DNA of 64,000 bases from an uncultured Gammaproteobacteria bacterium (GTDB lineage: Bacteria; Pseudomonadota; Gammaproteobacteria; Steroidobacterales; GCA-2729495). The stretch is from NCBI GenBank assembly GCA_937921935.1, contig CAKZWQ010000028.1, positions 62,001-126,000 on the forward strand, written 5' to 3'. The position numbers and the translations under genes were made by a program. The notes under the pieces were generated by a model. That model was not told the origin of the DNA, did no database searches, and saw nothing but the letters and a program-made list of their open reading frames with translations. Shown here piece after piece: positions 6,869-11,336 of this stretch; positions within the stretch are counted from its first letter, which is position 1, and the number at the start of each line of letters is the position of its first letter.

Positions 6869-7354
6869 TCAGCTGTCTGAGTTATCGCTGCCGAGTCGCA
6901 GCACCAGGACCACGGCGTCTTCATTACCGCCGTGGGCACGATAGTAGCCTTGCCGGACACCTATCACGTCAAAACCGGCCGCATGATACAAACGCAGCGC
7001 CTGTCGGTTCGAAGGCCGCACCTCCAGGTAAACACACTCGGCACCGGCGTCGTGGGCCGCCTGCAGCATATGCTTGAGCAGTCGTCTTCCCAGCCCGCAG
7101 CCACGCAGCGGCGGTGCCAGACAAATATTCAGCAAATGGGCTTCGCCGGCGGCGACGGACATGACGGCATAGCCAACCACCGCATCGTCACTCTGCAGGG
7201 CCACAGCAATGTAGCCCGCCAAAAGACAGTCACGAAAGATACCGGCACTCCACGGAAACTCGTAGGCCGCCTGCTCCAGCTCGGCAATGGCCGGCACATC
7301 TTCCTGGGACATGGGCCGCACGCGGGGCGGCAAATCTTTCACCGCGGCACTCAT
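6869..7354 (-). CDS. rimI: Ribosomal-protein-alanine N-acetyltransferase RimI
   Basis: GNAT-fold acetyltransferase of 161 residues that in E. coli acetylates the N-terminal alanine of ribosomal protein bS18. Seen: the acetyl-CoA loop in the form RGCGLGRRLLKHML, followed by YLEVRPSNRQALRLYHAAGF, which is the classic RimI substrate-strand block, and a C-terminal GYYRAHGGNEDAVVL. ATG 7354 overlaps the TGA of the upstream uracil-DNA glycosylase (ATGA); an upstream in-frame codon at 7390 lies inside that gene and was rejected. The glycosylase-rimI order is common in gammaproteobacteria. Confidence 0.93.
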   Translation of the reverse strand: MSAAVKDLPPRVRPMSQEDVPAIAELEQAAYEFPWSAGIFRDCLLAGYIAVALQSDDAVVGYAVMSVAAGEAHLLNICLAPPLRGCGLGRRLLKHMLQAAHDAGAECVYLEVRPSNRQALRLYHAAGFDVIGVRQGYYRAHGGNEDAVVLVLRLGSDNSDS

Positions 7355-8025
7355 GGGGCGATGGGCTCCAGTACAGATCGAGCCAGGCAAAGATCATCCC
7401 AGGCTTTGGGTTTCTGCGCCGGGCTGCGCAACAGGTAAGCAGGATGGTAGGTCACCACCAACGGAATTTCCTGCTCGCCATAGCGATGCACCTGGCCGCG
7501 CAAGCGACCGACGGGTGTCTTGGTATCGAGCAGGCTCTGGGCTGAAATTCTGCCCACGGCAAGAATCAGTCCAGGCTGCACCAACGCAACCTGGCGGGCG
7601 AGGTAGTCGGCGCAGGCTGAAATTTCTTCCGCCTGCGGATCCCGATTATCGGGCGGGCGACACTTCAGAATATTGGCGATATACACCTGCTCACGAGTAA
7701 CCCCGGCGGCGCGCAGCATTTGGTTCAGCAACTGACCACCGCGTCCCACGAAGGGCTCGCCCTGCCGATCCTCTTCGGCCCCTGGAGCCTCGCCAATCAG
7801 CATCCAGCGTGCCGCGGGGTCCCCAACACCAAAAACCGTTTGCCGCCGACTTTCGGCCAGGGCGCAGCGATGACAGCCTGCCACCTCCCCCTGCAAGTCC
7901 GCCCAGGCCGGGGCAACGGGCAAAACGGGCCGCGCCGGCTCGGGTACGGGGGCCCAGACGTCGATGCCCATTCCAGCCAAGGCGTGCCGCTGGCGAACCG
8001 TCAACTTGGCAGGGCTGGCATTCAT
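7351..8025 (-). CDS. Family 4 uracil-DNA glycosylase (4Fe-4S)
   Basis: Removes uracil from DNA during base-excision repair. The 224-residue protein has the family 4 motif 1 [18 protein letters not shown], a [11 protein letters not shown] block, and a C-terminal [11 protein letters not shown] segment. Four cysteines arranged as CHRC, KCRPP and SACADY fit the iron-sulfur ligands of this family. Such genes were often called phage-type DNA polymerase in older annotation. An N-terminal segment of about 50 residues before the domain is proline-rich and non-conserved, as usual. The gene sits four bases downstream of pssA and overlaps rimI. Confidence 0.93.
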
Positions 8026-8029
8026 CTGC

Positions 8030-8872
8030 TCAGGCCTTGCGGGTACTGCCCTCGTCTGCGCGACGGAGCTTGCGACGCCGCCAGCGCCATAAGCTCAGCA
8101 CCGGTCCGGAAACGGCATAGGTCGATGCCATGGAGAAAATAACCAGGGGGGGATTCAACGCGATCAGGACGAAGGTCAACGGAATGACGAAAAACCGGGC
8201 AAAGGAAACCCGCCCCTGAGGACTCAGGTCTTTGAAACTGTAAAACGCCAGGTGCGAGACCATCAGCACCGCGGCCAGCACCGTGACGGCGCCGCACAGA
8301 AACAAAGCAAAGCCGCCCGACCAGCCCAGGGTATCCCCCAACCAGACAGTGGAAACCACCAGTGCCGCAGCAGGCGGACTGGGCAAGCCTTCGAAGAAGC
8401 GGCGATCAACCGTGCGTGTACTGACATTAAAGCGGGCCAGACGCAGGCCAGCGGAAACCGTAAACAGAAAAGCTGCAAGCCAGCCGATCTTGCCCCAGGC
8501 CCAGCCGTACTCTGCCAGCCGGATCAATCCCCACTGGTAAACGATGATGGCTGGCGCCACACCAAAGGCGACCAGATCGGACAGGCTGTCATATTCGCGG
8601 CCGAAGTCAGACTCTGTGCCGGTCAGCCGCGCTACACGGCCGTCAAGACCATCCAGCGCCATGGCAATCAGCAGGGCGATGGCACTGTTCTGATAATTGC
8701 CGTCGATGGCACCGATGATGGCGTAGAAGCCAGCAAACAAGGCGCCCGTGGTCAGCAGGTTGGGCAGCAGATAGATGCCGCGACCTTTCAGGGACCCTTT
8801 AGAGTTGCTCTCATCCATGACCATGTCCGGTGAATACCGGCTCAGTTTGCCACGGTCGCGACTGAAACTCAC
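8030..8872 (-). CDS. pssA: CDP-diacylglycerol--serine O-phosphatidyltransferase
   Basis: Integral membrane enzyme making phosphatidylserine from CDP-diacylglycerol and serine. The CDP-alcohol phosphotransferase signature is intact near residues 90-120: DGLDGRVARLTG followed by FGREYDSLSD, giving the D-G-x2-A-R-x8-G-x3-D-x3-D pattern. About eight hydrophobic segments follow. This is the integral (type II) form, not the peripheral E. coli form. GTG 8872 lies six bases after the stop of the PSD-like gene; an ATG at 8824 is an alternative start. Its immediate upstream neighbour looks like the next enzyme of the pathway but lacks that enzyme's catalytic residues. Confidence 0.93.
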   Translation of the reverse strand: MSFSRDRGKLSRYSPDMVMDESNSKGSLKGRGIYLLPNLLTTGALFAGFYAIIGAIDGNYQNSAIALLIAMALDGLDGRVARLTGTESDFGREYDSLSDLVAFGVAPAIIVYQWGLIRLAEYGWAWGKIGWLAAFLFTVSAGLRLARFNVSTRTVDRRFFEGLPSPPAAALVVSTVWLGDTLGWSGGFALFLCGAVTVLAAVLMVSHLAFYSFKDLSPQGRVSFARFFVIPLTFVLIALNPPLVIFSMASTYAVSGPVLSLWRWRRRKLRRADEGSTRKA

Positions 8873-8878
8873 ATGGAC

Positions 8879-9511
8879 TCAGGCGCTTATCAGCTCTGCC
8901 AATACCGTGTCCCCGGCCTTCACAGCCTCACCCACGGCAACCTTCAGCCGGGCGCCGGCAGGCAATAAGACCTCGGCCACGGGCGCCAGACGCAGGTAGG
9001 CAAAGCGATGGCCCTGACCCAGGCGCTCCCCATAGCGCACGAAGGACCGGGGGGAACGCAGGGGTCCGCCGCGCGGAAAGGCCAGCAGGACATCATCGCC
9101 CTCCTCGCTGCGCAGCCGCAGCCCCTCGGGACTCTGGCCGGCAATGGCTGAGGACTCGATGGGCATGATCGTGCCCTCGATAGGCGCCCTAACCGTGTAA
9201 GCACCCAGGTGATTCACGCGAATGCGCAGGCGCCGCCAGGCAGCTTGCTCACCTGCGCCGGGTATCTGCTCCTCTGCCACGATCCGGCCATCAACCGGCG
9301 CGTAAATCGCCGCGGGCAGCGGCGGCACCGCGCGCGCGGGGTCGCGAAACAAAAAAAACAGCCAGACGGCGAACAGGCCCGCCGCCGCGGCTGCCGCTAA
9401 CCAGTCAAGACGCCAGCAGACCAGCGCCAGGGCTACACAGCCCAGCAGCAGCGGGATGCCTTCGGCCGCGATCGCCGACCGTCGCTTCGCAATGTTGTTG
9501 TTCATGGCCAT
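8879..9511 (-). CDS. Phosphatidylserine decarboxylase-like protein, catalytic residues lost
   Basis: A 210-residue protein with two N-terminal hydrophobic segments (residues 18-55). Its layout follows the short class of phosphatidylserine decarboxylases: an LFRDPARAVPP block after the helices, then YAPVDGRI, then VRAPIEGTI, then EVLLPAG near the end. Known family: these enzymes need a His in a HVNRAP-type motif and self-cleave at a Gly-Ser in an FGS-type motif to form the pyruvoyl group. Here the first motif reads AYTVRAP (His replaced by Tyr in register) and the second RLAPVAEVLLP (Gly-Ser replaced by Ala-Pro). The frame is intact across both sites. I infer a folded pseudoenzyme, probably cotranscribed with pssA. 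Start ATG 9511, with a second in-frame ATG at 9505. Confidence 0.8.
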   Translation of the reverse strand: MAMNNNIAKRRSAIAAEGIPLLLGCVALALVCWRLDWLAAAAAAGLFAVWLFFLFRDPARAVPPLPAAIYAPVDGRIVAEEQIPGAGEQAAWRRLRIRVNHLGAYTVRAPIEGTIMPIESSAIAGQSPEGLRLRSEEGDDVLLAFPRGGPLRSPRSFVRYGERLGQGHRFAYLRLAPVAEVLLPAGARLKVAVGEAVKAGDTVLAELISA

Positions 9512-9617: not shown

Positions 9618-11336
9618 ATGCGCCTGAGCTGCCTGCCCCTGACCACATTCAAGGAAGTCCCCGCCGAGGCGGAGGTTATCAGTCATCAGCTGATGCTGCG
9701 GGCCGGATTGCTGCGCCGCCTGGCTTCCGGCCTTTTCACCTGGATGCCTATCGGTTTGCGGGTGCTGCGCAAAGTGGAACAGGTTGTGCGCGAAGAGATG
9801 GACCGCGCCGGCGCCCTGGAACTGCTCATGCCCGCGGTACAGCCGGCAGAACTTTGGCAGGAAACGGGCCGCTGGGATGTCTACGGCAACCTGCTGCTGC
9901 GCATGCGTGATCGCCATGAACGGGAATTCTGTTTCGGACCGACCCACGAAGAGGTAATCACTGACATTGCCCGGCGCGAACTGAAAAGCTACAAGCAGTT
10001 GCCCGTTAACTACTACCAGATACAAACAAAATTTCGCGACGAGATCCGGCCCCGCTTTGGCCTGATGCGCGCGCGCGAGTTTTTGATGAAAGACGCCTAC
10101 TCCTTTCATCTGGACCAGGCATCGCTGAACGCAACCTACGAAGCCATGGCCGAAGCCTATGCGCGAATATTCACGCGCCTGGGGCTGGGCTTCCGTCCGG
10201 TAGAAGCGGACAGCGGTGAGATCGGCGGCGCTCGCTCGCAGGAATTTCATGTGCTGGCGGAATCAGGCGAAGATGCCATTGCCTATTGCGATGCCGACCA
10301 GTTCGCCGCCAATGTCGAGATGGCTGCCGCTTTGCCGCCGGACACGCCGCGACCGGCAGCCGGCGCAGCGATGGAACGCGTGAGCACCCCGGACACGCGC
10401 AGCATTGCCGACGTGGCCGGCTTTCTGGGTATACCCGCGGAGCAATGCCTTAAGACCCTGATTGTGGACGCTGAGGACGGGGGATTGATCGCCCTGGTCC
10501 TGCGCGGCGACCACGAACTGAATACTGTCAAAGCGACTGCCTTGCCCGGCGTCAGCTCACCCCTGAGCATGGCGAGTCCAGAACGCATACAGGCGGCCCT
10601 GTCGTGCCCGCCGGGATTCATCGGGCCGGTGGATCTGTCCGTACCCGTGATTGCCGACCACAGCGCCGCGGCGCTCGCTGACTTTGCCTGCGGAGCCAAT
10701 GCCGTCGACTGGCACCTGCAGGGTGTCAACTGGGGCCGCGACCTGCCTGAACCCACAACGGCCGACCTGCGCAATGTTGTGGCCGGCGACCCGAGCCCGG
10801 CCGGCGACGGCCAGCTGGCTATCGCGCGCGGTATCGAGGTGGGTCATATTTTTCAGTTGGGCGACAAATACAGTCGCAGCATGCAGGCCACAGTACTGGA
10901 TCAGGCTGGCAAGGACGTCCCCATGCTGATGGGTTGTTACGGTATCGGCGTTTCCCGCATCGTGGCTGCCGCCATCGAACAGAATCACGATGAGCACGGC
11001 ATCATCTGGCCCGAACCCATGGCACCCTTTCAGGTCATACTGATTGAACTGAATCCCAAAAAATCAGCGGAAGTCACCGCCGCTGCGCAAGCCATGTATG
11101 AGAGTCTGGTCACAGCAGGCATTGATGTGCTGCTTGATGATCGTAATGCGCGCCCGGGGGTGAAGTTCGCTGATGCCGACTTGCTGGGCATTCCCCATCG
11201 TCTGACCCTGGGCGATCGGGGCCTGAAGGCCGGAGCCATCGAGTATCGCGCCCGTCGCACGGGTAACGAGGAAAATATTGAACTGAATGATGTGGTCAAG
11301 TTCCTCCAGACGAAAGTTCTTGCCGGCGCGAATTAA
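9618..11336 (+). CDS. proS: Prolyl-tRNA synthetase (bacterial type with editing domain)
   Basis: Class II synthetase charging tRNA-Pro, 572 residues, the normal length of the bacterial form. Motif 1 lies near residues 40-75; motif 2 includes [21 protein letters not shown] around 135-155. An inserted YbaK-like editing domain, which clears mischarged Ala-tRNA-Pro, occupies roughly 225-390. Motif 3 is the [17 protein letters not shown] segment near 440, and the anticodon-binding domain closes the protein. The start gives the family's usual MRLS-type N-terminus. The 3' end overlaps the following lytic transglycosylase by 50 bases. Confidence 0.97.

Follow-up and report, generated by a model that had tools for sequence, protein, structure and literature searches.

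A degenerate phosphatidylserine decarboxylase homologue conserved across Gammaproteobacteria, probably retained as a pseudoenzyme of phospholipid synthesis

The psdL gene, its neighbours and the predicted protein

The window, that is, the whole stretch of 64,000 nucleotides that was analysed, carries on its minus strand an open reading frame for a 210-residue protein related to short-type phosphatidylserine decarboxylases (PSDs), which we named psdL, a name coined in this work (Table 1). As the original prediction had stated, the frame is intact, running from an ATG start to a TGA stop with no internal stops, and its product contains the framework motifs LFRDPARAVPP, PVDGRI, RAPIEG and EVLLP. 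pssA lies directly downstream on the same strand, its earliest possible start codon 6 nt beyond the end of psdL, and the two genes are likely co-transcribed. Farther out, the presumed uracil-DNA glycosylase family gene follows pssA in the window and directly follows psdL in most Woeseiaceae, the gene taken to encode a RimI-like acetyltransferase is conserved further downstream, and the presumed proS is the divergent upstream neighbour in the clade of the window.

Table 1. Genes and protein features at the psdL locus (window coordinates)
Feature	Position	Strand	Basis or remark
psdL, degenerate short-type PSD homologue, 210 aa	8879..9511	-	Open reading frame and family profile matches
Predicted membrane hairpin, residues 16-54 (helices 16-34 and 38-54)	9350..9466	-	AlphaFold2 model
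PVDG, residues 72-75, Asp74 kept (E. coli D90 position)	9287..9298	-	D in 184/193 homologues
GAYTVRAP, residues 103-110, Tyr105 in place of the catalytic His (E. coli H144)	9182..9205	-	Alignment
SEEGDD, residues 135-140, acidic motif [ST][DE]ExDD	9092..9109	-	Near-invariant in the degenerate clade
GERLGQG, residues 161-167, signature of the degenerate clade	9011..9031	-	G, R, G, G at 99-100%
Ala-Pro, residues 176-177, replacing the Gly-Ser self-cleavage site	8981..8986	-	Alignment
pssA, type II CDP-diacylglycerol-serine O-phosphatidyltransferase	8030..8872	-	TIGR00473 above cut-off
Uracil-DNA glycosylase family gene	7351..8025	-	Name presumed
rimI-like acetyltransferase	6869..7390	-	Name presumed
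proS	9618..11336	+	Name presumed

The psdL product matches PF02666 with 29.4 bits (gathering score 22, E 7.9e-7) as well as all eleven NCBIfam PSD-type models, with E values of 1e-6 to 1e-23 and scores that are all far under the cut-offs; with 84 bits against a cut-off of 262 for the best model, it does not qualify as an equivalog. Thus, psdL is a true PSD homologue rather than a chance reading frame. PF02666 is matched at E <= 0.001 by 60 of the 61 aligned family members. The Pfam and NCBIfam releases that were searched yielded no dedicated family for the degenerate PSD, and a sequence search of solved structures with the psdL product returned no relative.

The AlphaFold2 model of the product (61 sequences; pLDDT 91.7) consists of two hydrophobic helices and a beta domain. 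The helices are predicted to form a hairpin that would anchor the protein in the membrane with both termini inside. The PSD-like domain (model residues 66-209) has its best match among solved structures in EIIA-Glc (Z 13.5 over 126 residues), and it also resembles M23/LytM domains (Z about 7-9), including the LytM domain of EnvC (Z 7.5-7.7). The chains of E. coli PSD score 6.6-6.8, perhaps because they are split by self-cleavage. Judging from the model, the likeness to EIIA-Glc and M23 proteins is one of fold level only, namely the shared duplicated-hybrid-motif fold, and the psdL product has no Pfam match to the EIIA-Glc or M23-LytM families. EIIA-Glc and EnvC-type degenerate LytM domains, which are among the best fold matches, act by protein contact; in psdL a link to a phospho-His or an amidase is not apparent. 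The EIIA-Glc match suggests that PSDs are linked by fold to proteins with the duplicated hybrid motif.

Loss of the active site in a single clade

In the alignment with canonical short-type PSDs, VFNVHSNRAP corresponds to HLGAYTVRAP of psdL, which places Tyr105 at the position of the catalytic His, and RFGSRVDVYLP corresponds to RLAPVAEVLLP, with Ala176-Pro177 at the Gly-Ser cleavage site. Both catalytic elements are thus missing, as originally proposed. The PSD of E. coli loses decarboxylation through the H144A/N substitutions and cleavage through S254A (PMC7952604). The losses extend well beyond these residues. Of the columns conserved to 90% or more in canonical short PSDs (L157 numbering), those gone from the degenerate clade include the head-group loop with its NER motif, shortened by deletion (G118, F120, N122, A123, K127-A-S129 and N132-E-R134), Q151, the AGLxAR segment (A153-G-L-x-A-R-R159), R180-F-G-S-R184 and the FMNxFxVHxN strand. 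Between them, these losses have removed the whole active site from the clade. Retained are FRDPxR, PxDG, RxP, G108 and GxxxxxGxR, and newly conserved (window numbering) are Glu112, at 97%, and the [ST][DE]ExDD (135-140) and GERxGQG (161-167) motifs. By its residues, the psdL product is almost certainly non-catalytic, with no decarboxylation of phosphatidylserine (PS), and it would not be self-cleaved.

The gene is nevertheless under strong purifying selection, with a median dN/dS of 0.105, obtained by simple Nei-Gojobori counting over 97 non-independent pairs of related loci whose proteins are 70-99% identical.

To place the degenerate proteins among PSDs, a maximum-likelihood tree of 119 sequences was built with the catalytic columns excluded and alphaproteobacterial canonical PSDs as the outgroup. 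All 89 degenerate representatives fall into a single clade (SH-aLRT 100, quick search), which is itself nested among the canonical gammaproteobacterial short PSDs; support is poor for many inner branches of the tree. In 80 of the 89 representatives the catalytic His is replaced by an aromatic residue (Y/F/W), whereas Gly-Ser survives in 11, and about 11 changes inside the clade are required to account for the distribution of this state. From this pattern, it is probable that decarboxylation went first, in a single event, and that self-cleavage disappeared afterwards on repeated occasions. Two members of the clade (L151 and L165) have His at the catalytic position and Pro-Ala instead of Gly-Ser.

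Short-type PSDs (PF02666; the PRK05305/TIGR00164 group, Burkholderiales-like and alphaproteobacterial) are among the closest known systems. In addition to sequence homology, they share with psdL the N-terminal hydrophobic hairpin, the FRDPxR, PxDG, RxP..G and GxRxGxG motifs, the ilvC-psd-pssA slot and a nested position in the tree. In contrast, psdL lacks their His, Gly-Ser, FFNxxLDKASxENER loop and AGLxARR segment, and falls under the NCBIfam cut-offs.

Distribution, synteny and the second decarboxylase

A psdL match was found in 15 of 60 related genomes. The 14 full-length sequences (13 from relatives and that of the window itself) are intact and all read G[AT]YTxR[AS]P, and none of them has Gly-Ser at the cleavage site, where L015 has Ala-Ser. 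Thus, the AYTVRAP and RLAPVAEV replacements, on whose conservation in orthologues the original prediction depended, are no recent local mutation. In a same-genus homologue (L016, at the end of contig C47 of genome G003), the sequence departs from the family after about residue 72 near the contig end, through a frameshift or an assembly fault. A single-sequence scan of genome contigs for psdL homologues gave no match, whereas the alignment-based profile search yielded 80 named loci, from Woeseiaceae, Chromatiales, Thiogranum, Thiohalobacter, Ectothiorhodospiraceae and unclassified MAGs.

The psdL profile is matched by 125 genomes out of an evenly drawn sample of 369 from the class, and 17 of the fetched profile-matching loci proved to be canonical short PSDs, judged Burkholderiales-like by motif. 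Across 193 aligned homologues, His and Gly-Ser occur together only in these 17 canonical sequences; in the other 176, the His position is mostly occupied by Tyr or Phe, and the cleavage site reads GG, GA, GR, TR, AR, AP, GS or another pair. The degenerate homologues span dozens of gammaproteobacterial families. About two thirds of the sampled class genomes have no psdL, so that its role must be dispensable.

The genome of the window encodes one canonical PSD (L001), unlinked to pssA, which from its sequence only (SPADG, YHRFH, NLGST) belongs to the LGST class and has HxxH. The original prediction, which called for a canonical psd elsewhere in the genome, is borne out in this respect as well as by the close orthologues, which lack the usual HVNR and GS. 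This E. coli-type (M/LGST) PSD is a distant homologue of psdL, and unlike psdL such enzymes keep HxxH and M/LGST and are about 290 aa long. More generally, a separate strong PSD is present in 79 of the 81 genomes that carry the degenerate gene; among 20 such second PSDs that were read, HxxH is invariably present and M/LGST is seen in at least 18. Conversely, none of the 17 genomes with the canonical gene in the slot has another PSD. Clean as it is, the association coincides with a single split in the tree, so that this mutual exclusion represents one historical event rather than a series of independent repeats. Two MAGs, G145 (L202) and G248 (L165), carry the degenerate gene and no other PF02666 match; they may be incomplete or represent a real oddity.

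At the level of the class, the degenerate gene lies mostly in an ilvC-[gene]-pssA arrangement, in the slot that canonical psd occupies in the canonical loci. pssA adjoins the degenerate gene in 91 of 95 loci and the canonical gene in 15 of 17. In the relatives of the window, ilvC is gone from the psdL locus, and in most sampled Woeseiaceae it is pssA that is gone; pssA is adjacent in 23 of the 80 named loci, and of the 20 genomes searched that have none beside psdL, 18 contain a strong pssA match at another site. These changes indicate that the adjacency is inherited from an ancestral ilvC-psd-pssA operon and not strictly needed; by itself, it is therefore weak evidence of a role with PssA. 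In most Woeseiaceae MAG loci (L023-L096), a pssA-like gene lies outside the psdL locus, and the genome of L044 (G434) has both an adjacent and a second pssA, which suggests that the operonic pssA was replaced by a paralogue in Woeseiaceae.

By profile, no diverged psdL copy occupies the slot in 20 genomes without the gene, several of which have ilvC directly adjoining pssA; the two slots with large gaps contain unrelated reading frames. In a psdL-less genome, a small reading frame between ilvC and pssA (L265, 1330-1656) is unrelated to psd and has what we take to be an excalibur-like cysteine pattern. No psdL-pssA fusion was present among the loci checked for it, and two apparent fusions (L172 and L159) were stop-to-stop runs upstream of a gene of normal length. 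Of the 369 class genomes, 343 have type II pssA and 1 has the PLD type, so the type of PssA does not discriminate between genomes with and without psdL.

A probable membrane-anchored partner in phosphatidylserine metabolism, and the alternatives

The reading that we favour, and consider reasonably probable, is that psdL is an ancient PSD pseudoenzyme retained as a membrane-anchored partner in the synthesis of PS and phosphatidylethanolamine (PE). By position, it would descend from the short-type PSD encoded in the ancestral ilvC-psd-pssA operon. A second, E. coli-type PSD would have made catalysis by the slot enzyme redundant in an ancestor of many Gammaproteobacteria; the catalytic His would then have been replaced by Tyr or Phe, probably once, and the Gly-Ser site eroded afterwards, many times. 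The gene, kept by the purifying selection described above, would now encode a non-cleaved cytoplasmic protein anchored in the membrane, which most likely works by binding: close to newly made PS it would contact PssA, and perhaps, in prozyme-like fashion, a PSD, or PS itself, tuning or organising the PS-to-PE step. Channelling of substrate to another PSD, raised as a possibility in the original prediction, would be compatible with the near-constant second PSD.

Not all parts of this scheme are equally firm. That a pseudoenzyme is retained beside pssA agrees with the original prediction, but the PssA-specific role that it had added is still conjectural, given the inherited adjacency and the Woeseiaceae without an adjacent pssA. 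PssA, with which psdL shares an operon in most genomes, is the likeliest partner, though only tentatively the main one. A more far-reaching version makes psdL a class-wide regulator dedicated to PssA and to PE homeostasis and takes the same non-catalytic role to be a second function of active operonic short PSDs, so that PssA would have a partner of PSD fold in many bacteria; we consider it rather doubtful. The two MAGs lacking another PSD, the inherited adjacency, the absence of psdL from most class genomes and the single origin of the mutual exclusion count against the partner model. Strong selection on a PSD homologue whose active site is erased, kept mostly in the pssA operon and in lineages that have another PSD, suggests that short PSDs do more than catalysis in PS/PE synthesis. 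Moreover, many gammaproteobacterial genomes contain a Pfam-labelled PSD that very probably is not one, and annotations of 'two PSDs' are likely wrong. Pseudoenzymes are already known; in the literature searched, which was mostly non-subscription, we found no description of a PSD pseudoenzyme, let alone one this widespread and located in a pssA operon, or of a PSD in Woeseia.

Among the alternatives, the strongest is that psdL acts as a prozyme-like activator or stabiliser that binds the separate M/LGST PSD and controls PE formation. Its near-constant co-occurrence with such a PSD would fit this analogy, but the E. coli enzyme works without psdL, most genomes of the class do without the gene, and the two classes of PSD are only distantly related, with no case of adjacency among the loci read. 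A precedent exists in another pyruvoyl-dependent enzyme, the trypanosome AdoMetDC, whose prozyme is a catalytically dead paralogue kept beside the active decarboxylase (PMC5201418). That family is unrelated, however, and its prozyme heterodimerises with a close paralogue, whereas the active PSD here belongs to another class. On balance, we regard a prozyme-like role as unlikely.

Less likely still is a new, non-pyruvoyl function, such as lipid binding or transfer or a new chemistry, mediated by Glu112 and the [ST]DExDD and GERxGQG motifs. These residues are 78-100% conserved in the clade and variable in canonical PSDs, but they may be structural parts of acidic and glycine loops, and since the catalytic His has given way to an aromatic residue and the Ser position is free, no obvious catalytic set is left.

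That psdL remains active as a PSD, with cleavage and decarboxylation taken over by other residues, is highly improbable: Asp74 and the overall fold are retained and some clade members keep Gly-Ser, but the His144 equivalent, without which the E. coli enzyme does not decarboxylate (PMC7952604), is lost together with the head-group loop and the NER motif, and the cleavage position has no conserved Ser, Thr or Cys. Finally, although catalytic residues are lost and many lineages have discarded the gene outright, a functionless, decaying pseudogene can be dismissed as scarcely credible, being contradicted by clade-wide invariant residues and by conservation across dozens of families, and most strongly by a dN/dS of about 0.1 combined with frames that are intact in nearly all loci.
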